From assembly GCF_900110145.1 (NCBI RefSeq), contig NZ_FOCP01000001.1, positions 186,001-250,000 of the forward strand: a stretch of 64,000 nucleotides of DNA, read 5' to 3'. Below the pieces are notes generated by a model. It made no database searches and was not told the origin of the DNA. It saw nothing but the letters and a program-made list of their open reading frames with translations. The position numbers and the translations under genes were made by a program. This DNA is from Nitrosomonas marina. GTDB lineage: Bacteria > Pseudomonadota > Gammaproteobacteria > Burkholderiales > Nitrosomonadaceae. Shown in pieces: positions 39,635 to 59,147 of the stretch; position 1 is the stretch's first letter, and each line of letters begins with the position of its first letter.

Positions 39635-42600
39635 TTATTTTAAATTATTAGTTTTCATAACCGAAGACGGCGCCACCACGGCCAGACTGGCCTGTGGCAT
39701 CATGTTATCTGCAACCATCCACTGATTATTGATATCCGGATTGGAACCGATCGGATGTACTCTGACACCAATGGTACAGTTGCTCATATAGTTTTGCCGA
39801 ACAATAAACATACGCCCCATTGTGCCAAAAATCCGAATACCCTCAATCTCGGTCTGACGACTAAATGAAAAACGCTGAATAGTCATATGATTATCAATAA
39901 TCGATAAATGATTGCAGTTGCCGCAAAAAATTCCACCTCTGCGATGGACCGTCACTGGCGGCAGCAATACGTGGATGGTATTGCCTTCTATTGTGACTCG
40001 ACCCGCTTGATAGCGCTGATTTCCGCTCTGTTTGCGGTCGCTGACACCGATGTGTATGCCTTCCTGGACGCCATCCAGAGAATTATTCAAAATACGCACA
40101 TCCTTTGCAGTACGTCCACCACAGACAATACCTTTATAAGCGACAGACGGATTCTGACTGCCTAATGCGGTAAACCAGTTTTCAAATGGAAGAATACCGG
40201 CACGATAAACCGGATCGGTCAGTACTCTGGCAGCAATTGTTCTAGCGGCATTTAACAATACCTGATTACTGGCAACTGTGTTGGCGCCCAGTTCCCGGGT
40301 CAGGCTCGTTTTCCAGACATTACCGGCCACAGGTGATTCAATCATGATGCGGCGATTGCTGTTGGCTGCATCCATTTGAATATTCTTCTTCCCGGCAGCG
40401 CGTGTACTCTCAAAATTTCTGACTTCGCCACTGTTGATCAGCAGACGCCGCGCTCTTGCGGCAAAAAGCCTGTCGCTTAACTGGGTCTGTAGTGTCCAGC
40501 TACGCGGTTTGGGACGTGTTTTTATATGATTGTCCCGAACCGTCAACCGCTCCATATTCAAAAACAGCATACCAATCTGCTGGTGCCCCACATCGCAATA
40601 ACATCCCTGGATTTGCGCCGTGCCTGTTTGCGAATCGGTATGCCGTACTGTTAAACATGTTGCTCCAGGCCGAGTACCGGCCGCATTACGCAACGTCACC
40701 TGATTCAGGTGTACTTGCGCACAGTTTTGAAACGTCAATGCGCCATTAAGTGTTTTTAATTCTCCGGAGTTGCCGGCCGAGCGGGCCTCAACATACATGT
40801 CACGTATCGTAACGCTTGCGCATGACTCGAACCATAACGCCGTTTCACCTGTGCTGGTGACAATGCGCGTACCGGCGCCTGCCCCGGATATTTTCAGATG
40901 GCCCTTGCCCTGTACCTGCTTTTCCGTCGATAGCTGATACTCTCCTTCGCGAAAACACAACGAAGCATCCTGATTGTCAACGATCTGGTCAAACACGGAT
41001 TCCCAGCCTGGACGCGGAAAAACAGTATATGTCGCACATCCGTCAATTTCGCGTTGACATAACAGGTTCAATGCATCCTGAACACTGCGGATTTCAGGCG
41101 CCTGCAATGACTGGCAAAGCGTTTCATCCTTAATAACCGGCAACGTCGTCGCCGCATGATGACATAACAGAGCGTCGATAATCTGTCTTAAATTGGCCCG
41201 CGCATTCGAACCGTCTGGAAAATCAGTCCCCAACAATTGTGCAAGCAGGCTGGCAATTGTAGGCTGGGCGTTGTCTCCACAGTCAGGTACGCGATAACAT
41301 ACATCCCCGGCCTGCAAATCCGTCAATGGTGGAAATCCAAAACGCTGGCAAATCAGACTCTCTTCCGGCGCAAATATACCGCCGCTTATCGTACCCAGCA
41401 ACATGTAATGATGATGAATGCCAGCAGGTTCGGCAGTCGACAACAATATTTCACCCGCCACATTGACCGCCTGCCGCACCACCGCGTACCAGAAATCCCC
41501 GGCCAGCATCTGCCAATCGGCAAGTTCTATGGTCAATGTCATGACGTCATGATTGATTGCTACCGTACTGCCTTCAATCACATGACCGTGGGCATCGGCG
41601 CTTGAGCTGGTAGACAGCGTTACGCCACGGTCGGCTCCTCCAAGCAGCACCCATTCAGTACCGGATTTTTCGAGCTCACAATATCCGTCCCACCGGCGCA
41701 CTGCGGTGAAACCCGAAGGTGCCGAACCTGGATATCCATTGACCAGTTCGCCACGGACCGGTGTAAAGGCCGTTACCAGATGTTTGCCTAAATGCTTTTC
41801 GCTGTCATAGGTCTCGGGCGTCAATGCATCAGGATCGGAGTAACCGTCAAAAAACTCGTACACCCAGTTACTGGAACTGAAACCGGGCGGCTCGTCGTCA
41901 ATTATGTGCTGTTCCGCACCATTTTCCGAAGACCATTTGAGTACCACACGCTGCGGCTGTCCGCTAGTGCCATCGAACTGAACATGGTGTACTTCTACTC
42001 GAAACAGGTAATTTCCAAGCTTGTCCTGCAACACGATCTCATCAGCACAAGGGTCGCATGGGTCAGGTTCGGTGCTGCCCTGGCGCACCGTCAATGTCAG
42101 TTTTGCATTACCCACAGACGGGTTTTGCACATTGTCCTCAGGATCTACACCGGTTTCGCACCACTTGACCTGCGCCATCGTTTGCGTCCGCGTACACGTA
42201 TCTGCACCCTGCAAGCCCGGATCGCGCAGATCAGTATCTTCCAATGCAATAACGGTGCGTTCCCAGATGTCGACATACAATCGATAATCTCCGCCTGGCA
42301 GCGCCGGAGCACCGGGAAAATCTGCCTGGTGCTCATATTCGAAAACAGTTCCACTGGCATCCGACAACGTTGCTGCAGGATCCGGACGCACCTGCGCAAT
42401 CAAACCGTCAACATAACAATAACCCCACTGCAGTGCATAACTTCTGCTGCCATCCGGGTTTTCGGTAATACCGACCAACCCTCGTTCTCGAGGCGTGCCA
42501 CTGCCGATCACATCGATCAGGGCATCGGTCACTCTGCTTTTATCAATATCTGCCAGCTCATTCCAGTCAGCATCGGTCAGCATTCTCCCCATTTGCTGGT

Positions 42601-42658
42601 AAATACCGGAATATCGCTTTTTGGCATCAAAACTGTTTCGTGATATATGTGTTTTCAT
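39635..42658 (-). CDS. DUF6519 / parallel beta-helix protein, likely eCIS fibre
   Basis: 1007 residues. The N-terminus (MKTHISRNSFDAKKRYSGIY; QMGRMLTDADWNELADI) is the DUF6519 start found beside contractile-tail genes. A central jelly-like region (about 90-480) precedes a run of short strands from about 580 on (LKISGAGAGTRIVTSTGETA; VTIRDMYVEARSAGN; LTVRDNHIKTRP; VTIEGNTIHVLLPP; LSIIDNHMTIQRF), the right-handed beta-helix pattern of tail spikes. As last gene of the structural operon it is best read as a baseplate-attached fibre or receptor-binding protein; target unknown. Confidence 0.8.
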   Translation of the reverse strand: MKTHISRNSFDAKKRYSGIYQQMGRMLTDADWNELADIDKSRVTDALIDVIGSGTPRERGLVGITENPDGSRSYALQWGYCYVDGLIAQVRPDPAATLSDASGTVFEYEHQADFPGAPALPGGDYRLYVDIWERTVIALEDTDLRDPGLQGADTCTRTQTMAQVKWCETGVDPEDNVQNPSVGNAKLTLTVRQGSTEPDPCDPCADEIVLQDKLGNYLFRVEVHHVQFDGTSGQPQRVVLKWSSENGAEQHIIDDEPPGFSSSNWVYEFFDGYSDPDALTPETYDSEKHLGKHLVTAFTPVRGELVNGYPGSAPSGFTAVRRWDGYCELEKSGTEWVLLGGADRGVTLSTSSSADAHGHVIEGSTVAINHDVMTLTIELADWQMLAGDFWYAVVRQAVNVAGEILLSTAEPAGIHHHYMLLGTISGGIFAPEESLICQRFGFPPLTDLQAGDVCYRVPDCGDNAQPTIASLLAQLLGTDFPDGSNARANLRQIIDALLCHHAATTLPVIKDETLCQSLQAPEIRSVQDALNLLCQREIDGCATYTVFPRPGWESVFDQIVDNQDASLCFREGEYQLSTEKQVQGKGHLKISGAGAGTRIVTSTGETALWFESCASVTIRDMYVEARSAGNSGELKTLNGALTFQNCAQVHLNQVTLRNAAGTRPGATCLTVRHTDSQTGTAQIQGCYCDVGHQQIGMLFLNMERLTVRDNHIKTRPKPRSWTLQTQLSDRLFAARARRLLINSGEVRNFESTRAAGKKNIQMDAANSNRRIMIESPVAGNVWKTSLTRELGANTVASNQVLLNAARTIAARVLTDPVYRAGILPFENWFTALGSQNPSVAYKGIVCGGRTAKDVRILNNSLDGVQEGIHIGVSDRKQSGNQRYQAGRVTIEGNTIHVLLPPVTVHRRGGIFCGNCNHLSIIDNHMTIQRFSFSRQTEIEGIRIFGTMGRMFIVRQNYMSNCTIGVRVHPIGSNPDINNQWMVADNMMPQASLAVVAPSSVMKTNNLK

Positions 42659-42727
42659 AGTCAGAATTCCGTTAGTAGCAGAATAAAACGCCAGGATCGA
42701 TTTCTACAAACAGCAGTTTCCCTCCGT

Positions 42728-44299
42728 TCATTCAGGAATAGCCAGCAAACGCGAATCGGGAATTACAAGCGCCTGCTTATCCAATGGCAGATAATCACGT
42801 AATTTTTCAACCACGGCATCCGCAAGAAAACTCAAATACTCGCTGTGATACGCACCCATTTCAGTACCGTCCTCCGCACCGCGTGTGATTGTCCTCGGCG
42901 TAGCTGGATGCAACACCCCGCTGCTGCGGTCGCCAAAACGTTTTGACAGCATGACCGGTAAATCCCGCGTGGTATGAATCAGCCGCATATTGCCCGCATC
43001 CTGATTCCGCGCTATGCGCGAATATCGTAAGCAGTGCTGCTCCGGCGGCGACAAATCGGGCAAATGATGCCGGTGTATCAACCCCAGAAAAATACAGTCG
43101 CTGGCAAGAAGGTATTCGCTGAGCGTGGATTCCAGAACCGTGCAGTATGCCAGTTTGACCCGCCCGCGTGCCGCCTGTATCTGTCTGAACAAACAATCCT
43201 GCGCAGTAATCACGGCAGACACTTTATCGATACTGTGCACTTCCACCTTGCGCGCGGCACATTTCACCAGTTCCACGCGACCCGAATCCAGTTCCAGTGT
43301 ATTCAGCAAATTGACGCCCTCAAAGCGCCAGGTATGAAAATCAGGATCGCCCACGCCATCTTCGACCTGACCAAGCTGAATCGTACGGCGGATATTGACC
43401 GGAACAAAGTTGTCTTTACCGAATGTTTTGTTCCGATAGACCGTCGTATTGTTTTCGGTAATTACATTGATAAGCCTCAAAAACGCTTCACTCGGTTCTT
43501 GAGACCAGTTCACCGTTTGTATCCGGTCCGGAAAAAAACCGGCTGGCGGCACTGTGTAAAGCAGAATCCTGTCTGGATGGAAATGGCCAGAACGCCAGTC
43601 ACCGCTGCGAAAATCGACTGTACGGCGAGACACATCCTCAAAGCTGTTCGGGTAACATGGTGCGCCATGAAAACTCACTTGGCGCCAGGTTCGTGTATCG
43701 CCATCGATACTGCTTTGTTGCGCGGCAGGATTGCTGGTGTTTGATTTTACCGCTCCTGAAGGACATCTGAAGTCAGGCGTCACCGCCGGCAAGCCAGGAT
43801 GGCGGGCGGCAACTGAAGGTGGCGCCAAAGGCACTGCTCCTGACAAACCATAATGAATCTCAGGCATTAGCGGCACATTCAGCCGGGGCGTTACAGCAAC
43901 ACGCTTCCAGCCTTCCTGAAGCATCACTTCCAGCTGCGCAACCGATTCGGCAATTTCTTCTACAACACGCAGTGTACCCTTTCCCTGACGCCAGCGTATC
44001 GCTCTGGCGATTTCATCGCGCCGTCCTTTTGTAAGCGGTGAAACCAGGCGCACATCAAACAAATCAGCAAAATACGGCAACAGCCAGTCCTGGCAAGCCG
44101 GCGCGCCAGCATTCGGATTATCCGGAAAATGATCGGCCAGAAACTGTTCCAGCGTCGCATGCAGTTGATTCAGCAAAACTGCATTACCGGAAAAATATTT
44201 CTTCAGATCACCACTGCCTCCGTATTGCCTGCTGTCACGATTACGGTAAACAGCCGGTATTATCCGGAAAAGCGTTTCTGCATGATTTTTGTCAGCCAT
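42728..44299 (-). CDS. gpI-like phage tail protein, eCIS baseplate
   Basis: 523 residues. The first 150 (LFRIIPAVYRNRD; LLNQLHATLEQFLADHFP; WLLPYFADLFDVRLVSP; AIRWRQGKGTLRVVEEIAES) match the P2 gpI/TIGR02242 tail-protein family, which joins the baseplate wedge to fibres. About 200-420 are additional, with repeated beta-type segments (VELVKCAARKVEVHSID; VKLAYCTVLESTLSEYLL) not found in the phage protein and perhaps a fibre-docking domain. ATG 44299 follows the wedge gene's stop by 8 bases. 69 bases separate it from the fibre gene. Confidence 0.85.
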   Translation of the reverse strand: MADKNHAETLFRIIPAVYRNRDSRQYGGSGDLKKYFSGNAVLLNQLHATLEQFLADHFPDNPNAGAPACQDWLLPYFADLFDVRLVSPLTKGRRDEIARAIRWRQGKGTLRVVEEIAESVAQLEVMLQEGWKRVAVTPRLNVPLMPEIHYGLSGAVPLAPPSVAARHPGLPAVTPDFRCPSGAVKSNTSNPAAQQSSIDGDTRTWRQVSFHGAPCYPNSFEDVSRRTVDFRSGDWRSGHFHPDRILLYTVPPAGFFPDRIQTVNWSQEPSEAFLRLINVITENNTTVYRNKTFGKDNFVPVNIRRTIQLGQVEDGVGDPDFHTWRFEGVNLLNTLELDSGRVELVKCAARKVEVHSIDKVSAVITAQDCLFRQIQAARGRVKLAYCTVLESTLSEYLLASDCIFLGLIHRHHLPDLSPPEQHCLRYSRIARNQDAGNMRLIHTTRDLPVMLSKRFGDRSSGVLHPATPRTITRGAEDGTEMGAYHSEYLSFLADAVVEKLRDYLPLDKQALVIPDSRLLAIPE

Positions 44300-44307
44300 A
44301 GTTAGTC

Positions 44308-47166
44308 CTATAAATCGAAGGCCTGCACCGTGATATCGATTACCGATAATGCTCTGTCGATGTATACCGCCTGATAGTCAAATACCGATACGCGTTTAAT
44401 GGCGCCGTCAATACCCCGGGTGATCAATCGGGTTGTAACCGGATTACCGTCAGCACCGAAAAACCCGTCAGGATTCATCGCACATTGGCTGTTTGCAACA
44501 CCCGTAACACCTTCCACGACTTTGAACACGGCACTGAGGTAGAACGGTTGTCCCAGTTTTGAGTTTTTCAGAGAAAACGCAGATGCCAGTGCCTGCAGTA
44601 CATTTTCGTTTACCAGATCCGGATCAAACTCATCGGCTTTGACACGAATGACAACTTTGATGTCGAGAATGACCGACTCAAATGGCTTCACTTGAATAGT
44701 AATACCCGGCAGGGCATGGTTCCGCAGATACGCACTCACTGCATCCACAAGGCCACCCGGCTTGCCACCACCAGCCGGAACAATCGCAACTTCAACCTGT
44801 TTTTTGCGTACTGATGATTTTTGGAAAGCCCGTGCCTGCCACACGCCGCTATAACGTGCTGCAAGATGTGAAAAATCAGCAAGCGACACTGCGCGATCAA
44901 GCGCCAGAATACTACCGGGCGCATTGTCACGCATCGATTCAACGGCTTCCATATCATTTCCACCGCTCGACGTTATCGGCTGGTATATTGCTTCAACGAG
45001 TGGATCGGGTTTGACTGTTTTCTTCAAACTGTTTGCAGCCAGATTTCCGGACAGGCCGCCGCCAACGCGATGTACGATACGAACATTATTACTGCCGGTG
45101 GGCAAACGACGGCCATGCACCCCGTCACCGAATTCGACCTGCAACGTGCCATCCTCCTTCATCCGCACGGCGTAGTGCGGATCTTCCGGGCCGGAATCGT
45201 TCAGCGTGGCCACCTGCTGCCAGGTCCGGTTTTCAACCTGAATGGTGATTGCTGAACGCACGCCGTTGGGGAATTTCGGATCTGCAACGAAACTAATCTG
45301 TTCAACATCAAAATCGAATTGCTGATTCAGTCGCGTAGCGTCTCCCGAGCCCAGGATTTTTTCCTTTCGCGTTTCCCCATGTCCGGATTGCACTACATTG
45401 CCGTAAATTTTGGTGTAATAGCGGGTATAGTCATTTGTGGTACCACTGCCGGTCAATTCGCTGCCGGGAATGGCCGGTTCAATCTTGATCCGTTTGTTTA
45501 ATATGTCAATATCCTTGACCATTACCGCCATTGCGCTGCTTTTGCCCTCGACAATCAACCTCCTGCCGACAGACAGTAACTGCGGAAATTGTGCCAGCGC
45601 CAAAGGCAAAAAACTGTGATTGTCAGAGCGGTACTGCGGCTCGATCAAAAAACCGGGAGTTTCGTTGATATCATAATTTGACGGTCGCAATTCCATTTCA
45701 AACCGGGCGAACAACGTTATCCCATCCGCGAAAAAAACACCCGAAAGCTCCAGCTGATATTCATGTTCATATTCAACGAGGGTGGTCACAACCGCCGCAC
45801 GTCCACCGGTGCTTGTCTGCACAATCACCCAGTCGCCAGTCGAAAGCATTCCCGGGTCGCCATCGAATGACATATACAGAGGTTTGCTCTCGAGCACTGT
45901 CGCAACAGCTACCGCAGTTACTGAGGCACTGTCTTTCGGGATGAAATACACCCGATCATAATAATCGCCATTTTGGTAGGTATATACAGGCTGTCCGTCC
46001 TGGTTATACGTTGCATAACTGTTAATCTTTTGCAAATTTTCATCGAACAGGCCCCATTGCTCCCGATGATCAACCAGCGGCAGAATCACGCGGCGCACGC
46101 TACTGCCACTCACATTCATATCGCGCGCATCAGAAAAAGAAGTCAAATAAAGCGCCGTGCCCGGAACGGGGGCCGAACGCGACAACCGTACACGATCATT
46201 CTGAACTTCCTGGACGATCGCTGCTATCCAGGTTGCTCCCGATTTCCAGGCTATCACCGCATTCTCGCTCAGACCGTGATCGGATTTTAATATCGCCACA
46301 TTATCTCCGCTGATTCTGGGCATCTGCTTGAAATCGGGCTTGAGCAAAAGCCGAACCTGGTGTCTTTTGCTAATCTGCGGGAAACCGGCCGGTCTGCTTT
46401 CTCCCTGCAATATGACCTGCTGATCGGAAACACTGGCGACTTTAACCGCCAGCCCTTTGGTCTGTGTGCCGACATCAACCAGCAACATGCCAAGAGTACC
46501 GGTTGATATGTCCTCAACCGGCGCACTCAAGGGAAAAACAGCAGAACGGGTACTATCGTTGTACACAAAATCAATTTGTGATTTATTCCAGTTAAGGATC
46601 CGAATCTCATTCATCCTGCTGTCGACATCCAGATCGTTCAGCGTTTCAAAAACGGAAGGCTTGCTGCCGTCTTCGGGCGCATTCTTGAAGGCCAAACCGG
46701 CTGTAAGCACCCCTGATTTGCCATCCTTGGCAATAATTACGATCGGTGTCTGGGCAGAAGCTGGTGGCGCCGGATGGTAATCGAGCATATTCACGAGCCG
46801 CCGCACATGTCGCCACTGCGTCGCGGTTCGAATAAACGTCTCGTTGGCGTAAACATCGAGATACTCACCAAGTACATGAACTGCCCTGGCATAGCTGCGC
46901 AAAATCTCCCAGGCGTAATCACGACGCTCAGCGCGATATTGCTGCAACCAGCGTGCCTGGCGCTGCTCAGCCGATTCACTTAATGGCTGCACTATGGCCG
47001 TTTCCAGCGACTGCCACTGTAATTGGCCACTCTCGGTGAACGCATCACGCTGAGCCTGCCGCAATGTTTCCAGGAATGTAATGGCGTTACCATCCACATA
47101 ACGGAACCGTCGCAAACCGGAACGGTTCCAGCGCGTCAAATCTTTTTTATCGGGCAGCCCATTCAT
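44308..47166 (-). CDS. Baseplate J-like wedge protein (Afp12-like)
   Basis: 952 residues, TIGR02243/gpJ-type putative baseplate assembly protein. Hallmarks: an N-terminal helical part (YAWEILRSYARAVHVLGEYL; WRHVRRLVNMLDYHPAPPAS), a middle of small beta modules, then VEFGDGVHGRRLPTGSNNVR and VGGGLSGNLAANSLK, SGGNDMEAVESMRDNAPGSI and VSLADFSHLAARYSGV, the conserved J-like core. It forms baseplate wedges around the hub. ATG 47166 overlaps the stop of the upstream wedge gene by 4 bases. Confidence 0.92.
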   Translation of the reverse strand: MNGLPDKKDLTRWNRSGLRRFRYVDGNAITFLETLRQAQRDAFTESGQLQWQSLETAIVQPLSESAEQRQARWLQQYRAERRDYAWEILRSYARAVHVLGEYLDVYANETFIRTATQWRHVRRLVNMLDYHPAPPASAQTPIVIIAKDGKSGVLTAGLAFKNAPEDGSKPSVFETLNDLDVDSRMNEIRILNWNKSQIDFVYNDSTRSAVFPLSAPVEDISTGTLGMLLVDVGTQTKGLAVKVASVSDQQVILQGESRPAGFPQISKRHQVRLLLKPDFKQMPRISGDNVAILKSDHGLSENAVIAWKSGATWIAAIVQEVQNDRVRLSRSAPVPGTALYLTSFSDARDMNVSGSSVRRVILPLVDHREQWGLFDENLQKINSYATYNQDGQPVYTYQNGDYYDRVYFIPKDSASVTAVAVATVLESKPLYMSFDGDPGMLSTGDWVIVQTSTGGRAAVVTTLVEYEHEYQLELSGVFFADGITLFARFEMELRPSNYDINETPGFLIEPQYRSDNHSFLPLALAQFPQLLSVGRRLIVEGKSSAMAVMVKDIDILNKRIKIEPAIPGSELTGSGTTNDYTRYYTKIYGNVVQSGHGETRKEKILGSGDATRLNQQFDFDVEQISFVADPKFPNGVRSAITIQVENRTWQQVATLNDSGPEDPHYAVRMKEDGTLQVEFGDGVHGRRLPTGSNNVRIVHRVGGGLSGNLAANSLKKTVKPDPLVEAIYQPITSSGGNDMEAVESMRDNAPGSILALDRAVSLADFSHLAARYSGVWQARAFQKSSVRKKQVEVAIVPAGGGKPGGLVDAVSAYLRNHALPGITIQVKPFESVILDIKVVIRVKADEFDPDLVNENVLQALASAFSLKNSKLGQPFYLSAVFKVVEGVTGVANSQCAMNPDGFFGADGNPVTTRLITRGIDGAIKRVSVFDYQAVYIDRALSVIDITVQAFDL

Positions 47167-48569: not shown

Positions 48570-48959
48570 TTATTTGCTCCCTCCCACAACAAACTCGAGC
48601 TGCTCGCCTTGATTCAGGGTCGCCAGCGTATAGGCAATCGTGATATAGAGTTTTTCTCCATCTCCCGTCACACTCACTTCAAGACTTGCCGGCGCGACCT
48701 CTCCTGCCAGTGTTTCATTAAGCGATGCGGACAGGCGTTTTTTGGTCACTTCCCACAACGCCTGGCTGTTTGGCTCAAATACCAGCGCCCGAACACCGAT
48801 ACCGAATTCCGGCCGATACCATCGTTCCCCCGTATCTGTATACAGCACCTGTTCGATCTGTTCACGCACATGACGCTGACGAGTGCTTACTGCAGCACCG
48901 TTTTCTCCGATCTGCAGCGGAAACTTCATGTAATCGGGATTATTCAACCGGGTCGCCAT
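48570..48959 (-). CDS. gp25-like baseplate protein (Afp9-like)
   Basis: 129 residues, GPW/gp25 family. Typical features: FPLQIGENGAAVSTRQRHVR, EQIEQVLYTDTGERWYRPEF and the EFGIGV-type motif, then helical LWEVTKKRLSASLNETL and a final strand pair. In contractile tails this protein links sheath initiation to the wedges. Start chosen at ATG 48959, eight bases after AGGAGG, rather than GTG 48962. Confidence 0.93.
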   Translation of the reverse strand: MATRLNNPDYMKFPLQIGENGAAVSTRQRHVREQIEQVLYTDTGERWYRPEFGIGVRALVFEPNSQALWEVTKKRLSASLNETLAGEVAPASLEVSVTGDGEKLYITIAYTLATLNQGEQLEFVVGGSK

Positions 48960-49007
48960 CACCTGCCCCTCCTGTAATTTTCTCCATTGTGTTCATCCGT
49001 CATCCGC

Positions 49008-50960: not shown

Positions 50961-50990
50961 TTCCGTTTCCGTTATTCGTTAAACTTCAAC

Positions 50991-51281
50991 TCATTCCTTT
51001 AATCTTGGAATCAGCAATACCGATCCCTGCATGGTCTCATCGAGCATATCGCCGGCAAACAGAAAAGCCGGGTTGGCATCGACGATGCGCCACCATAGCC
51101 GATCATCGTTATAATAGTGGCGCGCCAGTTGATCGAGCCGGTTACCGGTCTGGATTTCATGCTCGATCATGCCGGCCGCCGGACCGATTTCGCGTGCTCG
51201 TACCCCCGGGAACACATCATCGCCGTCATTCTCAGGTTGAAAAAAACCGGCATTTTTGTACCGTGATTTTTTTAATAACAT
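50991..51281 (-). CDS. LysM tail protein (Afp7 C-terminal-like)
   Basis: 96 residues. The final 55 (HEIQTGNRLDQLARHYYNDD; WWRIVDANPAFLF; GSVLLIPRL) form a LysM-type module like gpX/Afp7 tail-tube connectors. A 40-residue extension precedes it. In Afp7 this domain is fused to the tube-like N-terminal domain; here it is separate, the partner being the gene at 51311. It likely joins inner tube to hub. Confidence 0.88.
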   Translation of the reverse strand: MLLKKSRYKNAGFFQPENDGDDVFPGVRAREIGPAAGMIEHEIQTGNRLDQLARHYYNDDRLWWRIVDANPAFLFAGDMLDETMQGSVLLIPRLKE

Positions 51282-51310
51282 CGCACCTGTCCTTTTTTAA
51301 AAATTCATCT

Positions 51311-51988
51311 CTAAAATGACGCACCGAAAGACGCCGAGAACGACACCGACACGCCACTGGCCAGATTGATCGCCGCACCGGCCGTCTGGCGTATTTTTTC
51401 CACCTGATAAAACGGATTGTTGCTTTCAATCACCTGAAAACTGAGTGTCACATTCGCACGGTAGGGCATGAGCGTCGGCAAATGCGCCACTTCCTCTACT
51501 TGTACGCTGGTCAAAAACACCGGCAGTACATGCGTACCCCAGATTAGCAACAATACCGAAGGATGTTCATCACGCTGAAATGCCTTGTTGCCCCCAAGGC
51601 CGAGGCTGGACAGCATTTGCACGCCCCCGGGTCCCTGCGTCTTGGGTTCGACCATACTGCGCAGCGTATCCAGTTCAGGCTCTATACCAAAAGCAACCGC
51701 TGGGCCATGACCTGGAGAGGACGGGTCGCTCATGCGGTCGGTGGCATCTATCAGGATTTGCATACTGAATTGCTCAGGTTCTATTGTGACACCTTGCGCT
51801 ACGCGCGGCGTTTCAGTGGGCAGGGCGAAGTCGTAACCGCCGCGTGTTCCCGGTGCGTTTCCAGTCACAATATTGATTGAGCGCGTGCGCGAGAGAGTCT
51901 GGGGATTAAATTCAAATTGCAACACCAGCGGTGGTATCGACAATCCGTACTCAATCAGAATGCCTCGGGTTAAATTAATCAATGCCAC
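51311..51988 (-). CDS. CIS tube-like protein (Afp7 N-terminal-like)
   Basis: 225 residues from GTG 51988 (GGAG just upstream); the frame reaches 52123 but those codons overlap the previous gene. It begins ALINLTRGILIEYGLSIPPL and has VLQFEFNPQTLSRTRSINI, EQFSMQILIDATDRM, and HPSVLLLIWGTHVLPVFLTS, the CIS_tube N-terminal-domain pattern used at the tube-baseplate junction. It overlaps the preceding small gene's stop by 14 bases, indicating coupling. Confidence 0.85.
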   Translation of the reverse strand: MALINLTRGILIEYGLSIPPLVLQFEFNPQTLSRTRSINIVTGNAPGTRGGYDFALPTETPRVAQGVTIEPEQFSMQILIDATDRMSDPSSPGHGPAVAFGIEPELDTLRSMVEPKTQGPGGVQMLSSLGLGGNKAFQRDEHPSVLLLIWGTHVLPVFLTSVQVEEVAHLPTLMPYRANVTLSFQVIESNNPFYQVEKIRQTAGAAINLASGVSVSFSASFGASF

Positions 51989-52313
51989 GTTTTTTCTCCA
52001 TCGATGGGTTGTCAGCGTTTTGAGCGGAAAATCTTTCAGTATCCTGGCTGTATAGACCGGACTGTTTCGATTGAACGGGGGTGTGCAGTTGCCGGTGAAT
52101 TGACTGGGCAATCCGTCCGGCAATCACCTGATCGGTTTCGCCATTGAAAACAACCACACCGGGAATCATGAGTGTTTTGTATTCATACGATTGTGTCAGC
52201 GGCATGCGTGCAAGCTGTCGCGCCACTTCGCGCGCGATCGCATCGGCCCGCTTTTCAAAACCTCGCGGCAGCTTCAGGTTCATTTTTTCGATCGTTAACA
52301 TGCGCTCGTTCAT
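51975..52313 (-). CDS. Small eCIS-operon protein, unknown
   Basis: 112 residues from ATG 52313 (GGAG 10 bases upstream). Visible: MNLKLPRGFEKRADAIAREV, LARMPLTQSYEYKTLMIPGV, and IAGRIAQSIHRQL, then a polar tail. Mostly helical, no membrane span or Cys. The start overlaps the AAA+ gene's end region and its own stop lies inside the next gene's start, so it is expressed with the machine. I do not recognise it; an assembly or adaptor role is only suggested by position. Confidence 0.7.
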   Translation of the reverse strand: MNERMLTIEKMNLKLPRGFEKRADAIAREVARQLARMPLTQSYEYKTLMIPGVVVFNGETDQVIAGRIAQSIHRQLHTPVQSKQSGLYSQDTERFSAQNADNPSMEKKRGID

Positions 52314-52314
52314 A

Positions 52315-53667
52315 TCAGGTGTTCTCCATTCCGCATACAAACTGCGGCAGATAATTTGCCAAAGGACCAAGGTCATTTTTATTCAGTTGTTGCCGGTCTT
52401 TGGCCAGTTCACGGTAAACGGCAATGGCGATATGCTCCAGCGAAATCGGTTGTCTCTCTTCAGCCGCAAGATACGCTGCGTGCAGCCCGGCATTACGAAT
52501 ATTGCCGCCGGTCAGATTGACTGCCTGCGACAAAAAACTGATATCCAGGTCGTCAGCACGCGGCGCGCGCGGAGGCAGCATCCGCTGCCATAGCTGCGCA
52601 CGTGCCTTGTGATCAGGCCTTGGGAATTCGACAACGACCTGAAACCGGCGCGAAAAAGCCTTGTCAATCTGGCTGCGCAAATTGGTTGTCAAAATGCACG
52701 GACCGTGATGATCCTCAATGCGTGCCAGCAGATAGCTTACTTCCATGTTCGCGTACCGGTCTCGCGCCTCCTTGATTTCACCACGCTTACTCATCAGCGC
52801 ATCGACCTCATCGAATTGCAGTACCATTTCCCTGCCGTGCGCCGCGTCGAACAGCTTGCCGATGTTTTTTTCGGTCTCGCCGATATACTTACTGACCAGG
52901 CGCGCCAGATCGACGCGATACAGCGGCCAGTCCATTTCATTGGCAATCACGGTTGCCGCAAACGTCTTGCCGGTACCCGATGAACCACTGAACAGCGCCA
53001 CCGGGCCACCCAGCTCATAGCCACCCCACCGGTCGACCACAGTCTCACGGTGACGCAGCCACATCAGATATTCACGCAGAATACGTTCGCGATCAGGTGG
53101 TAAAACCAGATCGTCCCACACTGCGCGCTGCCTAACCGGATAGGCGCCGGGCGGCGTTTCCTCGGATTCCGGCAAATCCATCAGGCATGCCAGCGCCTTT
53201 TTCCCAGGACGTAACAACGCAAACGCACTGTCCTGATCCGATTCGATCAGATTGAGCCGCCGTAATTCTCCACCAGCCGCGGTCAGTTGCCGAACATGAT
53301 GAAATTCGTTGTAATCCAGCGCCAGTATCTGCTGTAGCAACGCGGCAGTTACAAACGGTTGCGGGTTTGCCGGCTGCAGTTCCTGATACAGCCAGCCGGT
53401 TTTCGGTAGCGCTTCGCTAGCCAGCACACAGGCCAGTACGTCAATACCAAGCGGCGTCAACTGCCGGACAGGCAGTTTGGCCCATGGAGTGTTGGCTGAT
53501 TGACGCAACCGGTCAACCTGGGACTGAAGCTGTTCAAGCCGTTTCAGCACATCTTCCTGCGGCTGTCGTCCGGTACGCGATAATAACAGGCAGTGCGCAA
53601 GCATTTCGACGCGTTCCCATTCGGCCTGCAAATTTACGGGTGAGATGGCTTCAACGGCGGCGTTCAT
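52315..53667 (-). CDS. AAA+ ATPase of the eCIS (Afp15-like)
   Basis: 450 residues. The N-terminal 200 are helical (LQSQVDRLRQSANTPW; LRRLNLIESDQDSAFALLRP). The AAA+ core has Walker A GSSGTGKT (about 234-241), Walker B VLQFDEVDAL, sensor ILTTNLRSQIDKAFSRRF with the arginine finger, and a small C-terminal lid (LTGGNIRNAGLHAAYLAAEE). Afp15/Pvc15-type ATPases are hallmark eCIS genes implicated in particle assembly or cargo loading; they are not ClpV. ATG 53667 lies 3 bases from the DUF4255 stop. Confidence 0.93.
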   Translation of the reverse strand: MNAAVEAISPVNLQAEWERVEMLAHCLLLSRTGRQPQEDVLKRLEQLQSQVDRLRQSANTPWAKLPVRQLTPLGIDVLACVLASEALPKTGWLYQELQPANPQPFVTAALLQQILALDYNEFHHVRQLTAAGGELRRLNLIESDQDSAFALLRPGKKALACLMDLPESEETPPGAYPVRQRAVWDDLVLPPDRERILREYLMWLRHRETVVDRWGGYELGGPVALFSGSSGTGKTFAATVIANEMDWPLYRVDLARLVSKYIGETEKNIGKLFDAAHGREMVLQFDEVDALMSKRGEIKEARDRYANMEVSYLLARIEDHHGPCILTTNLRSQIDKAFSRRFQVVVEFPRPDHKARAQLWQRMLPPRAPRADDLDISFLSQAVNLTGGNIRNAGLHAAYLAAEERQPISLEHIAIAVYRELAKDRQQLNKNDLGPLANYLPQFVCGMENT

Positions 53668-53669
53668 CT

Positions 53670-54716
53670 CTAGGTTGTCCTGTACAGACTGATCAGTAGT
53701 GGGTTACTGCGAATCTCGACAGTCGGTTGTCCTTCGATCACGACTATACTGCGGGTTGCATACAGCAAACCCTGAGCGGCATTCTCATCGACAGGAATAC
53801 TCACAGGCAACGGAAGCGGCAGCGTTTCCGGAAAGAGACCCGGAACCGGTGCCGGAATCTGCACGGGATCGATAGTATCGTTAAACGGGGTAACCACATG
53901 CGGCGCGCCTACCTGGCGCCAACCACTGGAATCCCATACTTCCCAGACCAAACTGACATTCTCGCCGCTATCGCCGGCTATCCATAAGTCCGGCGAGAAG
54001 CCGGCAAACTCTGGGCTGTCTATTTCAAAACTGAGCGTCTGCACACACGTATTCTGGTAAATCCAGCAAATTTGTGGCACCCATTGCGGATTGGCTATAT
54101 CAACACGCCGTAACGGCACTCGCGGCCCGGATACATTGCCGGAAAATCCGATGTAGCGCTGCGCCCGGTCACCAAACACCTGGTGTCCCAAGCTACCCAC
54201 CAGCGGCGGCTCGGTTCTGAGCTGCGATGGTATAACCGGCGCGAGCGCCAGTTCATAAAGCACCGACGGCCTGTACACTGTATCGCTTTGCGTTGACCAG
54301 ATCTGATTGATTTGCTCATCCGTTACCGGGGTAAAAACCACCTGTAATCGTACGCTAACCGTGCCGATGTTGACTGCGGCCAATACGGGGCGCTCATGAA
54401 AAATACGCATGACCTCTCCAAGCATGCGCAAATCATTTTCACCTGCAGGAATATCGTCCTCGTCAATGCCGAATGTCGTAATCAGGCAATACATGCGCAT
54501 ACGCCAGAATTCATCAGGTCGAACCGACGATTGAATTCCCGCGGGCTCAAAGCGGTAAAAAAATAGATTGATACGGTGCTGATCATCGTCCTCCGCGACT
54601 TCTGCAGGCGCCGCGATACTGACAGTAATATTGTTGGTCGCCGCATTGACGCCATTGCGAACAAAATCGCCAATCGAGGCACAGATAATGGACAATGACG
54701 ATTCCGGCAGCGGCAT
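53670..54716 (-). CDS. DUF4255 (Pvc16/Afp16-type) tail terminator
   Basis: 348 residues. The first 200 match the DUF4255/Pvc16_N family (ASIGDFVRNGVNAATNNITV; RINLFFYRFEPAGIQSSVRP; LRMLGEVMRIFHERPVL; VRLQVVFTPVTDEQINQIW), which caps the tail end of eCIS. The C-terminal 150 form a beta-rich extension (VSLVWEVWDSSGWRQVGAPH). ATG 54716, 4 bases after the preceding stop. It identifies the cluster as eCIS rather than type VI secretion. Confidence 0.92.
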   Translation of the reverse strand: MPLPESSLSIICASIGDFVRNGVNAATNNITVSIAAPAEVAEDDDQHRINLFFYRFEPAGIQSSVRPDEFWRMRMYCLITTFGIDEDDIPAGENDLRMLGEVMRIFHERPVLAAVNIGTVSVRLQVVFTPVTDEQINQIWSTQSDTVYRPSVLYELALAPVIPSQLRTEPPLVGSLGHQVFGDRAQRYIGFSGNVSGPRVPLRRVDIANPQWVPQICWIYQNTCVQTLSFEIDSPEFAGFSPDLWIAGDSGENVSLVWEVWDSSGWRQVGAPHVVTPFNDTIDPVQIPAPVPGLFPETLPLPLPVSIPVDENAAQGLLYATRSIVVIEGQPTVEIRSNPLLISLYRTT

Positions 54717-54719
54717 AAT

Positions 54720-55748
54720 TCACAGGCTCCGTAAAAAACGACGGCTGGTCTGGTCGTCATGCCGTACAACACTTGAAGTATCGCGTGATTGTTTTGGTCC
54801 TTCTACAATGACATTGACCACACCGATATTTACTTGTGGGTTTTGCGCAGTGCGATTTTCCCTGGCCAGCCTGAGATCATTTGTTTCGGCACGCGTTTTT
54901 TGCCTGGCGGCAGACAGTTTAGTCACCTCACCATTCTGCTGCAACTCGGACACACCCAAGTCTTTTTTCACATGAACAGGCCGGGGCCGTTGTGCCTCGT
55001 TACCGTTGCGCTGCGCAGCGCGCGATTTCACGCCAGAGAAATTGTCACTGCTATATGCAGCCGTAACCATTTCATCTGACTTAACTTCATTTAATGAGGC
55101 CGACCGGTTTGTATTAGTTTTATCATTTGTTACATGCTGGGTCGTTCGCTGTCCAGTGTATTCAAAATCGACCGGAACATTCATTCGGGTTTTCAACAAA
55201 TACGGCGAGGTGTTTTTTTCCGCACCGTTTCCCTGCTTGTTCACACCGCTTTCTTCTGCACGATCCAGTCGTGATATCTCAGTATGCAGCTGCTCGAATT
55301 CTCCGTTTGCTTTCTGCTGGTTGGTCTGCTGTCGCGACTCTTTCGGGCCGTGAAACTGACACTCGCTATCATCTGGTGTACCGATATTAGTCAGCGATTC
55401 CGCTGTTGAATCAACCCGGTCCCGGTACACAACTACAGGCTGCTTATCAGACAAGTCATGCAACCCTGCCGCATCAGCGAATGACTGTGCTTCGTGATAT
55501 TCATCTGGAAAATGACCGATGTAATTATCACCCGTAATACCCGTATTTTCTGTCATACCGGCGCTGATATTTTGGCTATCGATCTTCGTTGCAGTAGCAA
55601 TATCGGTCGTAAAGGGCGCTGCCTTGGTCTCATGAACCATTGCCAATTCGACATTTTGCATTGGCTGCGTATTGCGCTCCGGGATTTGCGCAATTGAAGA
55701 CATGCCATGGCGACCGTCGTGAATAATACTTCTGAAAAAATTACCCAT
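54720..55748 (-). CDS. Disordered protein with C-terminal VNIGVVNV-type motif
   Basis: 342 residues from ATG 55748 (GGAGG five bases upstream; an upstream start at 55760 is less good). Most of it is polar, Asn/Gln/Thr/Lys-rich and low in hydrophobics (KESRQQTNQQKANGEFEQLH; NDKTNTNRSASLNEVKSDE), so probably unfolded. Near the end NPQVNIGVVNVIVEGPK resembles the VNVTIGRIEV-like strand that ends many tail-cluster proteins near DUF4255. It may be an adaptor or ruler-like component; not a normal coiled-coil tape measure. Confidence 0.65.
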   Translation of the reverse strand: MGNFFRSIIHDGRHGMSSIAQIPERNTQPMQNVELAMVHETKAAPFTTDIATATKIDSQNISAGMTENTGITGDNYIGHFPDEYHEAQSFADAAGLHDLSDKQPVVVYRDRVDSTAESLTNIGTPDDSECQFHGPKESRQQTNQQKANGEFEQLHTEISRLDRAEESGVNKQGNGAEKNTSPYLLKTRMNVPVDFEYTGQRTTQHVTNDKTNTNRSASLNEVKSDEMVTAAYSSDNFSGVKSRAAQRNGNEAQRPRPVHVKKDLGVSELQQNGEVTKLSAARQKTRAETNDLRLARENRTAQNPQVNIGVVNVIVEGPKQSRDTSSVVRHDDQTSRRFLRSL

Positions 55749-56598
55749 GCAGTCCTCCATGAACCAGCTTCTGACGGTCGATCATGCCGCGGCTGCAGTC
55801 GATTAATTGTAAATAATGCTGGCGTCTTGTACTTGGCAGAGCCAGAATATCCTGTTCGCTCCAGTGATAATACAGTGCGATGGTATGGACCTCGTTGAGC
55901 AGGTCATCGGCAGAGCGATCGAAACAACTATAGGGAGTAACCGGCAGTCGGTTCTCAGCCTGGCAATTCGGACAGTTGGCTGACAGTTCTGTTGCAATTT
56001 CAGGTGACATGGATTCAGCTGCGATTTCAATTTGCTCGATATCTTCCGTTGTCAACTGTTCAGGCTGCAATTGCTGCCGGCGGCCCTTCCTCCTGACCAA
56101 ACGTGTAATCAATCGCCACATGGCCTGTTGCTGATTCGCGATATTAACGACTGCCAGCTGGTCGTTCCCCGTCGGTACGGAAACTGTCACCTTGCCCAGA
56201 CTGATTTCGATAACTTTGTTCGGATAGTGTTCTCCCGCCGGTTTTACCGGCAACTCGGAATGTCTGAAGGATACATCGAATTTTTCTGCGCATTGACCAC
56301 AAACCGCAGTCAACCAGACAACACCATCGTCAATGTATACAGCCAGTTGACGCATCAGAAACTGACGATCACCAACGCTCAGCGCATTCACCGTCTCCCT
56401 GTTCACTGACTGACCTCCGATACTCGCAAGATTTTGACATAACACATGCGTTACCCGTTGCGCATGACAAAACACATCATCCTGAGCCGGAATCGACTGC
56501 TCGCACAGCATGAGTTCGCATTCACCCGTCAATTCACGGAATTTAAAATCTCGTCTGCGCTCGCCGTTTACTATCAACCCGCCCGGTAGCTCAATCAT
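55741..56598 (-). CDS. Zinc-ribbon eCIS assembly protein (gp26/gp51-like hub chaperone?)
   Basis: 285 residues. Two Cys pairs, CGQC (about 100) and CPNC (about 209), suggest a zinc ribbon. The C-terminal LLNEVHTIALYYHWSEQDIL and LPSTRRQHYLQLID are typical of T4-family hub-assembly proteins of contractile systems, where they occur without entering the particle. The start MIELPGGLIVNGERRRDFKF also fits. It overlaps the next gene's start by 8 bases. Role as an assembly chaperone is inferred from family and position after the tube gene. Confidence 0.75.
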   Translation of the reverse strand: MIELPGGLIVNGERRRDFKFRELTGECELMLCEQSIPAQDDVFCHAQRVTHVLCQNLASIGGQSVNRETVNALSVGDRQFLMRQLAVYIDDGVVWLTAVCGQCAEKFDVSFRHSELPVKPAGEHYPNKVIEISLGKVTVSVPTGNDQLAVVNIANQQQAMWRLITRLVRRKGRRQQLQPEQLTTEDIEQIEIAAESMSPEIATELSANCPNCQAENRLPVTPYSCFDRSADDLLNEVHTIALYYHWSEQDILALPSTRRQHYLQLIDCSRGMIDRQKLVHGGLHG

Positions 56599-56618
56599 GT
56601 TCTATCCTGAAATCGAAA

Positions 56619-57128
56619 CTAGGTTTCAGTTGGTTCTGTCACACTGGTATCACGCTCCCAGCCGTTATGCTGAAGCGTCAGCATCTGGATACCCACCGAA
56701 TTCATCGTACCCGCATCGAATTCAGGCAGTGCCTGAAACTCCGACACCCAGGCACCGTAAACCCGGTACGACATTGCCAGCGCGCCTTGAAGATTCAGAA
56801 CATTTAATACAATGTCCTTACGATAATTCACCAGGGACATTGCCGCGTTACCCTGAATATTGTTCACCAGATTCGCCCAGTTTTCGAAAACCGGATCGTG
56901 TGTCAATCCCTGTTCAAGAGTAATCGGCTCATAACTGGTACCGCCCGGCATCACGCGCTCGTGAGCCGAATCACCGGCAGAACGCCACTTTACCGCTTCA
57001 GTCGACTTCTTCAACACACTCATTTTTCTAAGACCGGCAACTGGCGCACCGTCTATAATCACCTGAAACATAAATGTACGATAGGGATCGTAGCGATGCG
57101 CGTTAGCCGGGAACATTGGTGCAGCCAT
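56619..57128 (-). CDS. Inner tube protein (gp19/Afp1-like)
   Basis: 169 residues of the phage T4 gp19-like tube family: FMFQVIIDGAPVAGLRKMSV, SAHERVMPGGTSYEPITLEQ, GLTHDPVFENWANLVNN and SYRVYGAWVSEFQALPEFDA. It polymerises into the inner tube through which cargo passes. Only one tube gene is present, whereas Afp has several. A strong AGGAGG precedes ATG 57128. 107 bases separate it from the sheath gene. Confidence 0.95.
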   Translation of the reverse strand: MAAPMFPANAHRYDPYRTFMFQVIIDGAPVAGLRKMSVLKKSTEAVKWRSAGDSAHERVMPGGTSYEPITLEQGLTHDPVFENWANLVNNIQGNAAMSLVNYRKDIVLNVLNLQGALAMSYRVYGAWVSEFQALPEFDAGTMNSVGIQMLTLQHNGWERDTSVTEPTET

Positions 57129-57235
57129 AAAAACCTCCTTTTAACAATATCCGGTTCTCGATATCCTGCTGATAGAACTGCGGCCTTATTAATAAGAAAA
57201 GACGCAAATCGATAATATTCAACAATTAGCATTCA

Positions 57236-58789
57236 TTACTGTTCGCCAACCTTCTGCTGAATTCGAACAATCACAAACTCCGCAGGCTTTAGCGGCGCAA
57301 AACCAACGATCACTATCACCTGACCCCGATCGATATCACCTTGTGTCATGGTGTCGCCCAATCCGCAACGGACAAAATAGGCATCCTTGGCTGTAGCGCC
57401 TTGAAATGCACCGGCACGGAACAATCCATCCATAAAAGAACCGATATTTGCGCGCAACGCTCCCCACAGCGGATGATCATTCGGTTCGAACACCGCCCAT
57501 TGGATGCCGTTGTAAATGCTTTGTTCGATATAAATAGCCGTCCGCCTGACGGGGACATAACGCCACTCCGGATCAGCCCGCGTAGCCAGCGTTCTTGCGC
57601 CCCAGAACACCGGACCGAAACCCGGACGGTTACGGATACAGTTCACACCCGCAGGATTCAGACCATCCTGCTCCAGATCTTCTACATTAAACTGCAATCC
57701 GCTGACATTGATTCGTGTCTCGACGCCTGCCGGTGCTTTCCAAACACCGCGTTTACCGTCGATTTTTGCCCACATTGCAGCGGCAATAGCCGAAGGTGGA
57801 ATATTCAATGTCTTGCTGGCGGTCGGATTGGAATCCACGTGATACAGTGGATTGCTCACTGCCACCCAGGGATAGTACAGCACCGAGTAAGTCGATGTCG
57901 GCAGGCTCAACGACGATACATCATTGCCTGTTTCAAGCTCCGTATCGACCGGGGGATCGACAATCACTACACGACTCATGGTCGCTTCACAATGTGTAAT
58001 CGTATTGGTAATAAAATCGTTAGTACTGCCATCGTCGGGCCACTGTTGGCCTGGCAGCACCATGATCGACACATCACGAAATTTGCGCAGTACGTCGTTA
58101 TAAAAATTTAAATAATCATCGGCAGTCGGTCCGGTCTCGGAACCACCGGCCAACGTACTGAAACTGGTAAAATTCCCATCTGCATCCTGCGTATTTGCAT
58201 CTGGCAGCGCAGTCACGCCATCCTCGACTGTTATCCGAATCAGGTTGGAACTTGCATTAATGACTTTCTCGACAAAATTATCATCAGTTGGGTTCATACT
58301 CATTCCGAGAAAAACCTCAGACGGAACAGGCACAAAATCACCGGCGACCTCGGTTCCGACATGAAGATCAAAACTGGCACCATCAACGGCGATGGCAACA
58401 CGCAGCGCATCTCCCCAGTCACCTTCGCTGGAGGCTGTAACTGTCATGACATCCACGGGCGTAGTATCCTGCAAGACTACCGAGGCAACCACAGGCGCGG
58501 GATTACTGTCAAGAACACGGCAAATATATGCCGCTTTGCCACCATTCTGATAAAACGCACGAACAGCCAGCGCCATATGGTCATTTTCATTCTCCACGCC
58601 GGAAGACTGAGCATAATCACCAAACTGGGAAATATACGCTTCCCATGTACCAATCAGTGTAGGTGTATTCGCCGGGCCTCTGAAAGGCGAACCGACAAAT
58701 GCCGCAGTTGACGTAGATACACCCTCTATCGCTCTGGAACCACTGGGTATTTCTTCAATGTAAACACCCGGATGTAAATAACTAGGCAT
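57236..58789 (-). CDS. Contractile tail sheath protein
   Basis: 517 residues from ATG 58789 (GGGAG six bases upstream; the 14-codon upstream extension lacks family character). Hallmarks: LHPGVYIEEIPSGSRAIEGV, STSTAAFVGSPFRGP, MVLPGQQWP region, VWKAPAGVETRINVSGLQF, WGARTLATRADPEWRYVPVR and the C-terminal FAPLKPAEFVIVRIQQKVG used to link sheath subunits. A single sheath gene; Afp has three. First gene of the operon, 120 bases downstream of a sigma-54-type promoter. Confidence 0.96.
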   Translation of the reverse strand: MPSYLHPGVYIEEIPSGSRAIEGVSTSTAAFVGSPFRGPANTPTLIGTWEAYISQFGDYAQSSGVENENDHMALAVRAFYQNGGKAAYICRVLDSNPAPVVASVVLQDTTPVDVMTVTASSEGDWGDALRVAIAVDGASFDLHVGTEVAGDFVPVPSEVFLGMSMNPTDDNFVEKVINASSNLIRITVEDGVTALPDANTQDADGNFTSFSTLAGGSETGPTADDYLNFYNDVLRKFRDVSIMVLPGQQWPDDGSTNDFITNTITHCEATMSRVVIVDPPVDTELETGNDVSSLSLPTSTYSVLYYPWVAVSNPLYHVDSNPTASKTLNIPPSAIAAAMWAKIDGKRGVWKAPAGVETRINVSGLQFNVEDLEQDGLNPAGVNCIRNRPGFGPVFWGARTLATRADPEWRYVPVRRTAIYIEQSIYNGIQWAVFEPNDHPLWGALRANIGSFMDGLFRAGAFQGATAKDAYFVRCGLGDTMTQGDIDRGQVIVIVGFAPLKPAEFVIVRIQQKVGEQ

Positions 58790-58907: not shown

Positions 58908-58924
58908 ATGCAAAAAACATGCCG
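58908..58924 (-). promoter_or_regulatory. Sigma-54 -24/-12 promoter of the eCIS operon
   Basis: Reading leftwards the minus strand gives CGGCATGTTTTTTGCAT: GG (58923-58922), ten bases, GC (58911-58910), the exact spacing of sigma-54 promoters; consensus is TGGCACGNNNNTTGCA, with mismatches at the first T and one base of the -24 box. Transcription would start near 58898, about 110 bases before the sheath ATG. Confidence 0.75.
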
Positions 58925-59007
58925 GAATTACCCCATATTAAGTCACTGTTTTATATGTACAAGAAAAATACAATCCGCAACAATACGGGGCGTTTCTTAC
59001 CCGGTTG

Positions 59008-59073: not shown

Positions 59074-59147
59074 CCGGGTAATAATTGACCCGGCAATGAT
59101 CTTGATGTGTCTGGACACATGACACGGTAACGTTGTGTTACCGTGTC
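59074..59147. promoter_or_regulatory. Cluster of three further dyads upstream of the eCIS promoter
   Basis: CCGGGT/ACCCGG (59074-59093), ATGTGTCTGGACACAT (59105-59120, perfect) and GACACGGTAAC/GTTACCGTGTC (59121-59147, perfect 11-bp stem with loop GTTGT). The last could instead end transcription of the TauE/SafE gene, but no T-run follows. The stretch 58790-59228 holds no gene. Confidence 0.5.

Follow-up and report, generated by a model that had tools for sequence, protein, structure and literature searches.

A candidate extracellular contractile injection system with linked regulator and DUF4157 cargo candidates in Nitrosomonas marina

The best-studied relatives of the locus described here are a small set of contractile injection systems (CISs) and extracellular CISs (eCISs). 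The tube of AlgoCIS is reported to be filled by DUF4157 proteins (PMC8894135), the AAA+ ATPase Pvc15 to assist cargo loading in the PVC (PMC11495950), and DUF6519 (eBAP5) proteins to anchor eCIS fibres, with C-terminal parts that often adopt beta-helix or lectin folds (PMC12923769). The particles of the Streptomyces coelicolor CIS are given as 230-268 nm long (PMC10066040, PMC12237407). Here we analyze a 64,000-nucleotide stretch of the Nitrosomonas marina genome (contig NZ_FOCP01000001.1, positions 186,001 to 250,000; hereafter, the window, in which all positions are counted from its first letter), where a preliminary description had placed an eCIS operon of 16 minus-strand genes at 39635-58789. 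The operon appears to be the largest part of a laterally acquired eCIS-type injection module that carries its own regulator and cargo genes, and we consider it likely that the module is an extracellular injector of DUF4157 proteins.

Inserted block and sheath lineage

The 16 genes run consecutively from the sheath gene (start 58789) to the DUF6519 gene (end 39635); the coordinates of the preliminary description were right, none of the 16 genes contains an internal stop, and the 15 intergenic gaps span -14 to 107 bp with the start codons chosen in this analysis. Matches to tail, baseplate or CIS families, Pvc16_N included, were obtained for 14 of the 16 genes, some of them below the curated cut-off, with Pfam, NCBIfam and PHROG-type (phrog_) profiles as the basis of assignment. 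The predicted products make up a full set of sheath, tube, cap, AAA+ ATPase, hub, spike, wedge and fibre proteins, and DUF4157 genes and a gene for an NtrC-type activator lie in the same insertion. These family matches, together with the Pvc16 protein, the AAA+ ATPase and the grouping of the sheath with CIS sheaths, bear out the assignment to the eCIS type. Not covered by the preliminary description were the co-inserted cargo genes and regulator, the HxH spike that lacks a PAAR-type partner, the architecture shared across phyla and the presence of two further CIS loci in the same genome.

Comparison with eight related genomes delimits the insertion. Homologues of the flank genes 30675-31367 and 59229-60050 are directly adjacent in two of these genomes (G093 and G008) and separated by one other gene in a third (G107); the homologue of the 30675 gene was not found in the examined stretch of G094, G026, G108, G095 and G002. 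Between both flank genes, the window genome (G000) and its close relative G066, whose flank gene is 99% identical, carry the NtrC-type gene, the genes denoted A19, A18 and A17, and the operon; G006 agrees with them on the sulfide-oxidation side and differs on the other. Because the flank homologues adjoin in G093 and G008, the inserted unit can be placed at about 31861-58789, that is, about 27 kb. The operon taken as the unit in the preliminary description thus stands as to the coordinates of its 16 genes, whereas the inserted unit is larger and takes in the activator, both DUF4157 cargo candidates and A17 as well. The G+C content is 51.4% in the inserted block vs 48.3% outside, and no direct repeats were detected within either flank, the two flanks not having been compared with each other.

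The ratios of nonsynonymous to synonymous substitution rates (dN/dS) against G066 are 0.03-0.22 for 14 of the 16 operon genes, which points to maintenance of the operon by purifying selection; g4 (0.59) is the fastest-evolving operon gene, followed by g7 (0.37), and the values for A17, A18 and A19 are 0.40, 0.13 and 0.19, respectively. Given these low values and the same gene order in other genera and phyla, the gene set is judged not to be a chance association.

A sheath-alignment scan of named genomes yielded 80 loci, the best 80 of 572 relatives. In a 130-row tree, built without a few weak sheath matches from the genus, the window sheath belongs to a 26-row clade (support 97) made up of Pseudomonadota and Thermodesulfobacteriota, together with a single row from Nitrospirota and, on a long branch, one from Myxococcota. 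Streptomyces, Cyanobacteria, Chloroflexota and many others fall into a clade of 64 rows; the tree does not settle how these two clades and two small lineages branch. In a smaller tree that includes 11 sheaths from viral contigs, the clade of the window sheath (clade A) is supported at 100/99 and joins the Streptomyces-containing clade at 97/99, with the viral sheaths outside that join; no tailocin sheath was included. The window sheath accordingly lies outside the Streptomyces-containing (type IId) clade, the two being separate supported clades. Its best relatives in the PDB are 9ezm, linked to a Halogeometricum paper (PMC11566945), and 8bky (S. coelicolor), followed by PVC, Afp, AlgoCIS and Anabaena chains.

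The same trees bear on the possibility that the block is a prophage remnant or an R-type tailocin. The structural parts do derive from phage tails, and 27 phage records contain distant sheaths; however, all 27 are less than 60% identical to the window sheath (about 32% over 78% of the query in the best rows shown), the R-pyocin sheath matches it at 1.4e-6 only, and the window sheath stands apart from the 11 viral-contig sheaths. No head gene is present among the family matches of the inserted block, and Pvc16, AAA+ and linked DUF4157 genes mark CISs, so that we regard this origin as highly improbable. The view that the locus is not a type VI secretion system (T6SS) likewise held: such an identity is unlikely, with no match to IcmF_C/TssM in the genome in a search that gave a match in Escherichia coli as a control (TssJ, TssL, ClpV and Hcp were not searched).

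In clade loci of sufficient extent, the gene order is sheath, tube, T4_baseplate-like, g4, Pvc16, AAA+, (g7), CIS_tube, LysM, hub, spike, gp25 and J1, a series that is fullest in L046 and L049, with others cut by contig ends or open reading frame (ORF) picking; J2, gpI and DUF6519 follow. The single sheath gene, single tube gene and split Afp7 and Afp8 equivalents, which had been considered oddities of the window operon, turned out to be usual in its own lineage and are also seen in the neighbouring one, where CIS_tube, LysM and hub are encoded by individual genes in G005 and G021, as is the spike in G005. The split is thus a trait of the lineage. A Hormoscilla locus (L074:5242-11578) contains three adjacent sheath genes, the first two encoding 806 and 688 aa and the third 531 aa.

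The window genome (3.50 Mb, 69 contigs) encodes an AMO-family (ammonia monooxygenase) protein (2.2e-118), and on account of this gene the host, previously called a putative nitrifier, is identified as an ammonia oxidiser. The sheath family was found in 39 of 85 genomes of the genus, with 2 to 4 matches in 16 of the 85, a count that includes some neighbouring genes of one locus. Locus A, the operon described here, is present in at least four members of the genus (G000, G066, G006 and G014, in the last on a 7.9-kb contig). The window genome has three CIS loci, and the sheaths of the other two, B on contig C31 and C on contig C32, are far from that of locus A in the trees. Locus B (L012, G000:C31:23262-34531) encodes a Pvc16-like protein (Pvc16_N), a 410-aa sheath, tube, CIS_tube, hub-spike, gp25 and Baseplate_J. 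Locus C (L014, L015, G000:C32:19306-40209) has two tube genes, matches to Pvc16_N, CIS_tube and spike, a sub-threshold wedge match, its own AAA+ gene at C32:17945-18697, and the only PAAR_motif protein of the genome.

Cargo candidates, fibre and regulatory region

The DUF4157 linkage typical of eCISs is present: A18 and A19 lie directly downstream of the operon (Table 1). The preliminary description had invoked DUF4157 as an eCIS marker; the genes are indeed linked, although outside the coordinates that it gave. A18 additionally contains a PG_binding_1 part (PF01471, 1.1e-5) and an OmpA-like part (PF00691, below cut-off), and A19 a second HExxH near its C-terminus. A17 as a cargo protein with only a leader is a weak proposition because the leader pattern occurs in the window copy and not in the G066 and G006 copies. 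DUF4157 proteins were detected in 14 of the 15 clade genomes searched. In 9 of 13 named clade genomes they are encoded on a contig equal in length to that of the operon, directly after the DUF6519 gene in six; in G119 a gene of 247 aa intervenes, in G114 the match is about 1 kb further on, and in G113 the DUF6519 gene was not resolved by ORF picking. Among the remaining named genomes, G110 has its DUF4157 gene on another contig and the placement in G111 is not resolved.

The window genome encodes six DUF4157 proteins, five of them on this contig. One of these, 513 aa long and also with a second HExxH, is encoded outside the inserted block at 16621-18162; two more map to L016:7626-9605 and L016:18585-19730 on the same contig, one of them with a sub-threshold match to Bacterial toxin 44.

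The last operon protein, g16, combines a DUF6519 N-terminus with a variable C-terminus, as in eBAP5 fibres. Its residues 1-460 are 76% identical to the G006 protein, the remainder not being alignable by BLAST, and BLAST alignments with seven clade homologues from other genera extend from residue 1 to 460-606 at 27-41% identity. On the simplest reading, g16 would be an anchor with an exchangeable binding part. The C-terminal part of the G006 fibre matches a helix-hairpin-helix profile at the cut-off, with beta-propeller profiles far below theirs. To the eye, the C-terminal part of g16 has the look of a beta-helix; a PDB sequence search with these 468 residues gave no match up to E 1, and this therefore stands as a reading of the sequence only.

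The NtrC-type activator gene adjoins the cargo genes in G006 and G066 as well. About 120 bp before the sheath start, the window contains a candidate sigma-54 -24/-12 element (GG-N10-GC) that is retained in G006 despite changed flanking sequence; of 500 letter shuffles each, 3 equalled the best element in G000, 1 in G066 and 10 in G006. Further upstream, the dyad aligned in G006 reads ACGGGT-N8-ACCCGT, with both arms altered together and the spacing unchanged. We regard these as a candidate sigma-54 promoter and activator-binding dyad ahead of the sheath gene, on the strength of conservation and position rather than of count. Between the candidate sheath promoter and a TauE/SafE-like gene (recognized by eye) is a 17-base inverted repeat around a loop of 5 bases (59115-59153), possibly a terminator.

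Two operon proteins, g4 and g7, matched no family above cut-off in the Pfam, NCBIfam and PHROG searches. A member of a widespread family found at the same gene position from Streptomyces to Nostoc, g4 has a conserved N-terminal motif, a highly variable linker and an 'IGRIEVRA...DYLRRR'-like C-terminal end. In phages, its position is the usual one of the tape measure; no operon protein gave a family match to a tape measure (Afp14), for which no dedicated profile was used. Despite its position and conserved ends, a tape-measure role of g4 is not supported: the ORFs that carry its C-terminal motif in Kitasatospora (185 aa) and Streptomyces (529 aa), both with unsure starts, and an ORF of 1116 aa in Nostoc have lengths that do not fit the particle length given above for S. 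coelicolor.

Table 1. Features of the inserted block and of the region upstream of the sheath gene
Feature	Position	Strand	Evidence and remarks
g1 sheath, 517 aa	57236..58789	-	PF17482 2.6e-13, PF04984 1.4e-11; CIS sheaths in PDB
g2 tube, 169 aa	56619..57128	-	PF06841 2.7e-36
g3 T4_baseplate-like protein, 285 aa	55741..56598	-	PF12322 2.1e-5, phrog_150
g4 linker protein, 342 aa	54720..55748	-	low-complexity look; conserved N-/C-terminal motifs (by eye)
g5 Pvc16/DUF4255 cap protein, 348 aa	53670..54716	-	PF14065 (Pvc16_N) 3.1e-23
g6 AAA+ ATPase, Afp15 position, 450 aa	52315..53667	-	PF00004 1.8e-24
g7 small conserved protein, 108 aa	51975..52301	-	present in G066, G006, G014; start set by comparison
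g8 CIS_tube, Afp7 N-terminal half, 225 aa	51311..51988	-	PF19266 6e-8; GTG start taken from G006 protein
g9 LysM-like, Afp7 C-terminal half, 96 aa	50991..51281	-	phrog_7145 2.9e-13; Pfam and NCBIfam matches below cut-off
g10 hub, Afp8 N-terminal half, 377 aa	49827..50960	-	phrog_52 9.1e-14; PDB 9rce, 7aef; VgrG_rel 4.2e-12, below cut-off
g11 spike, HxH near C-terminus, 272 aa	49008..49826	-	PF04717 (Phage_base_V) 1.9e-25; PDB matches
g12 gp25 wedge, 130 aa	48570..48962	-	PF04965 3.2e-11
g13 wedge J1, 468 aa	47163..48569	-	TIGR02243 partial, 2e-18, below cut-off
g14 wedge J2, 952 aa	44308..47166	-	PF04865 (Baseplate_J) 1.7e-8; TIGR02243 6.4e-44, below cut-off
g15 gpI-like, 523 aa	42728..44299	-	PF09684 (Tail_P2_I) 1.9e-4
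g16 DUF6519 (eBAP5) fibre, 1007 aa	39635..42658	-	PF20129 4.6e-20
A17 possible cargo, leader-like stretch, no DUF4157, 262 aa	38417..39205	-	kept in G066, G006
A18 DUF4157 cargo candidate, 1232 aa	34672..38370	-	PF13699 1.4e-23
A19 DUF4157 cargo candidate, up to 424 aa	33359..34633	-	PF13699 1.3e-31
NtrC-type sigma-54 activator, 478 aa	31861..33297	+	PF00158 1.3e-63; HTH_8 below cut-off
Candidate sigma-54 -24/-12 element, GG-N10-GC	58909..58925	-	kept in G066, G006
Dyad CCGGGT-N8-ACCCGG, candidate activator site	59074..59093	-	in G000, G066

Spike tip, proposed mechanism and alternatives

Among 20 clade loci checked, the spike ends in HxH in all 18 that are readable (the spikes of L058 and L064 were not readable and were left out of the count). 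Of nine loci from the neighbour lineage, four lack a spike match and the spikes of the other five all lack HxH; four of these five encode a small DUF4280-like protein, L037 being without a tip match. In the window operon, the gp25 gene follows 45 bp after the spike gene, and no PAAR-type tip protein, a part that is frequent but not universal in eCISs, was found. PAAR_motif (PF05488) is a poor test for the neighbour lineage, as it missed the genomes of G021, Streptomyces and Kitasatospora, whose small tip candidates match DUF4280 (one of the three over the cut-off); for this reason the G021 tip protein was chosen as a whole-genome query, and it matched 8 of 9 neighbour genomes, all except Nostoc, vs 0 of 16 clade-A genomes. 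PAAR_motif matches occur in 9 of 15 clade genomes, in six of them away from the operon, in a different locus or contig (G006, G066, G113, G119, G120 and G121); the contig of the match was not resolved in the other three (G109, G112 and G122).

In P2 gpV, Mu gp45 and related needles, iron is bound by HxH (PMC11448403, PMC11821841), and by this motif the clade spike would probably bind iron and may work alone. The S. coelicolor CIS is reported without Cis10 (PMC10066040), so that the bare absence of PAAR is not new; what is new is an HxH spike shared by a lineage, and a literature search judged by titles and the starts of abstracts found no report of an HxH tip in an eCIS. With somewhat better than even confidence, we propose that this lineage, spanning at least three phyla, dispenses with a separate tip protein in favor of a one-piece, iron-capped, phage-type needle, carries all its effectors in the lumen, keeps regulator, cargo and injector together as a fixed module and, in ammonia oxidisers, is stacked with unrelated CISs. 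If this is true, the effectors of the lineage cannot ride on the tip.

For the window module, the following course of events may be envisaged. The activator and sigma-54 would drive transcription from a single promoter ahead of the sheath gene; a baseplate would form on hub and spike, tube and sheath would grow on it, and the Pvc16 protein would cap them. The AAA+ ATPase would help load the DUF4157 proteins into the tube; since the operon encodes no PAAR-type tip protein, cargo would be carried in the lumen and not on the tip. The particle would then leave the producer, dock via the DUF6519 fibre and contract, so that the one-piece HxH needle, probably capped with iron, would pierce the target envelope and the cargo would be set free.

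Several points weigh against the predicted extracellular injector of DUF4157 proteins. The activator motif reads GAFTDA in place of the GAFTGA that sigma-54 activators usually carry, which weakens the sigma-54 step, and a looser scan of the window found no excess of -24/-12-like elements (28 vs 23.7 expected, a count reached by 18 of 100 shuffles). The Aliiglaciecola genome (G109) has a single weak DUF4157 match that was not placed near the operon, the genome search of G112 gave none, and AlphaFold models of A19 (3 sequences) and g16 (4 sequences) both have a mean predicted local distance difference test score near 30. No lysis or release gene is among the family matches of the block, and the nearest studied relative, the Streptomyces CIS, is described as acting inside the producer.

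The last two points fit a cytoplasmic CIS that kills or remodels its producer under stress, as in Streptomyces. Both Streptomyces and Chloroflexota belong to the neighbouring sheath lineage, and their studied members are reported to stay cytoplasmic (PMC10066040, PMC12998442), and a DUF4157 effector is reported to serve a Streptomyces CIS, too (PMC11126660). However, the full DUF6519 fibre, whose C-terminal part differs between species, fits outside targets, the S. coelicolor CIS being described without a conventional fibre (PMC10066040), and no CisA-like membrane adaptor was recognized in the block by a hydropathy scan, no dedicated predictor having been used; the highest 19-residue means were 1.79 (g8), 1.76 (A18) and 1.74 (g1). 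We therefore consider cytoplasmic action unlikely, if the most serious competitor. A membrane-anchored CIS, similar to T6SS-iv or to thylakoid-anchored forms, appears more doubtful still: related CIS lineages are reported to include anchored forms (PMC8894136), but the same hydropathy scan showed no clear anchor segment, and TssM is lacking from the genome as noted above.

Relation to known systems

The locus places CISs in ammonia-oxidising bacteria, where a single genome can contain as many as four sheath matches. By titles and the starts of abstracts, no report of a CIS in Nitrosomonas or other ammonia oxidisers was found, PMC7861908, which mentions Nitrosomonas, aside; a passage of PMC10553843 cites a Nitrosomonas cytochrome. 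An extracellular injector of this kind would provide a sharp test of cargo carriage where a PAAR-type tip is absent and, because the insertion is delimited by related genomes in which its flanks adjoin, the module can be tested as a single unit.

With the S. coelicolor CIS (type IId), the window operon shares a single sheath gene, a Pvc16-type cap and AAA+; a conventional tape-measure gene is not reported for that system in PMC10066040, and none was seen here. A Streptomyces locus (L101) encodes a candidate tip protein that is DUF4280-like, and one of its ORFs carries the C-terminal motif of g4. The window operon differs from type IId by its separate sheath clade, DUF6519 fibre, HxH spike and lack of a DUF4280-like tip. 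AlgoCIS of Algoriphagus (subtype Ib) also has DUF4157 cargo genes in its cluster; its Afp7 equivalent is reported to be cleaved between the barrel and the LysM domain (PMC8894135), whereas two genes encode these parts in the window, and its sheath is distant (PDB 7adz, 1.4e-40) and its spike-hub fused, with a PAAR position, Alg10. The subtype Ia systems, Afp and PVC, share their part classes with the window operon, but each has three sheath chains among the PDB matches (Afp2-4, Pvc2-4) vs one sheath gene here. From the eCIS fibres of the eBAP5 (DUF6519) type, as described in PMC12923769, nothing decisive separates g16. The P2 gpV, Mu gp45 and phi92 needles are described with an OB-fold spike and an HxH apex (PMC11448403, PMC11821841), to which g11 is likened by motif only, its match to phi92 gp138 being weak (0.026); unlike these needles, the window HxH spike sits on a predicted cargo-carrying CIS that has no head. 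Taken together, these comparisons identify the predicted operon as a complete CIS module of the eCIS superfamily, with a spike tip that marks a variant lineage.

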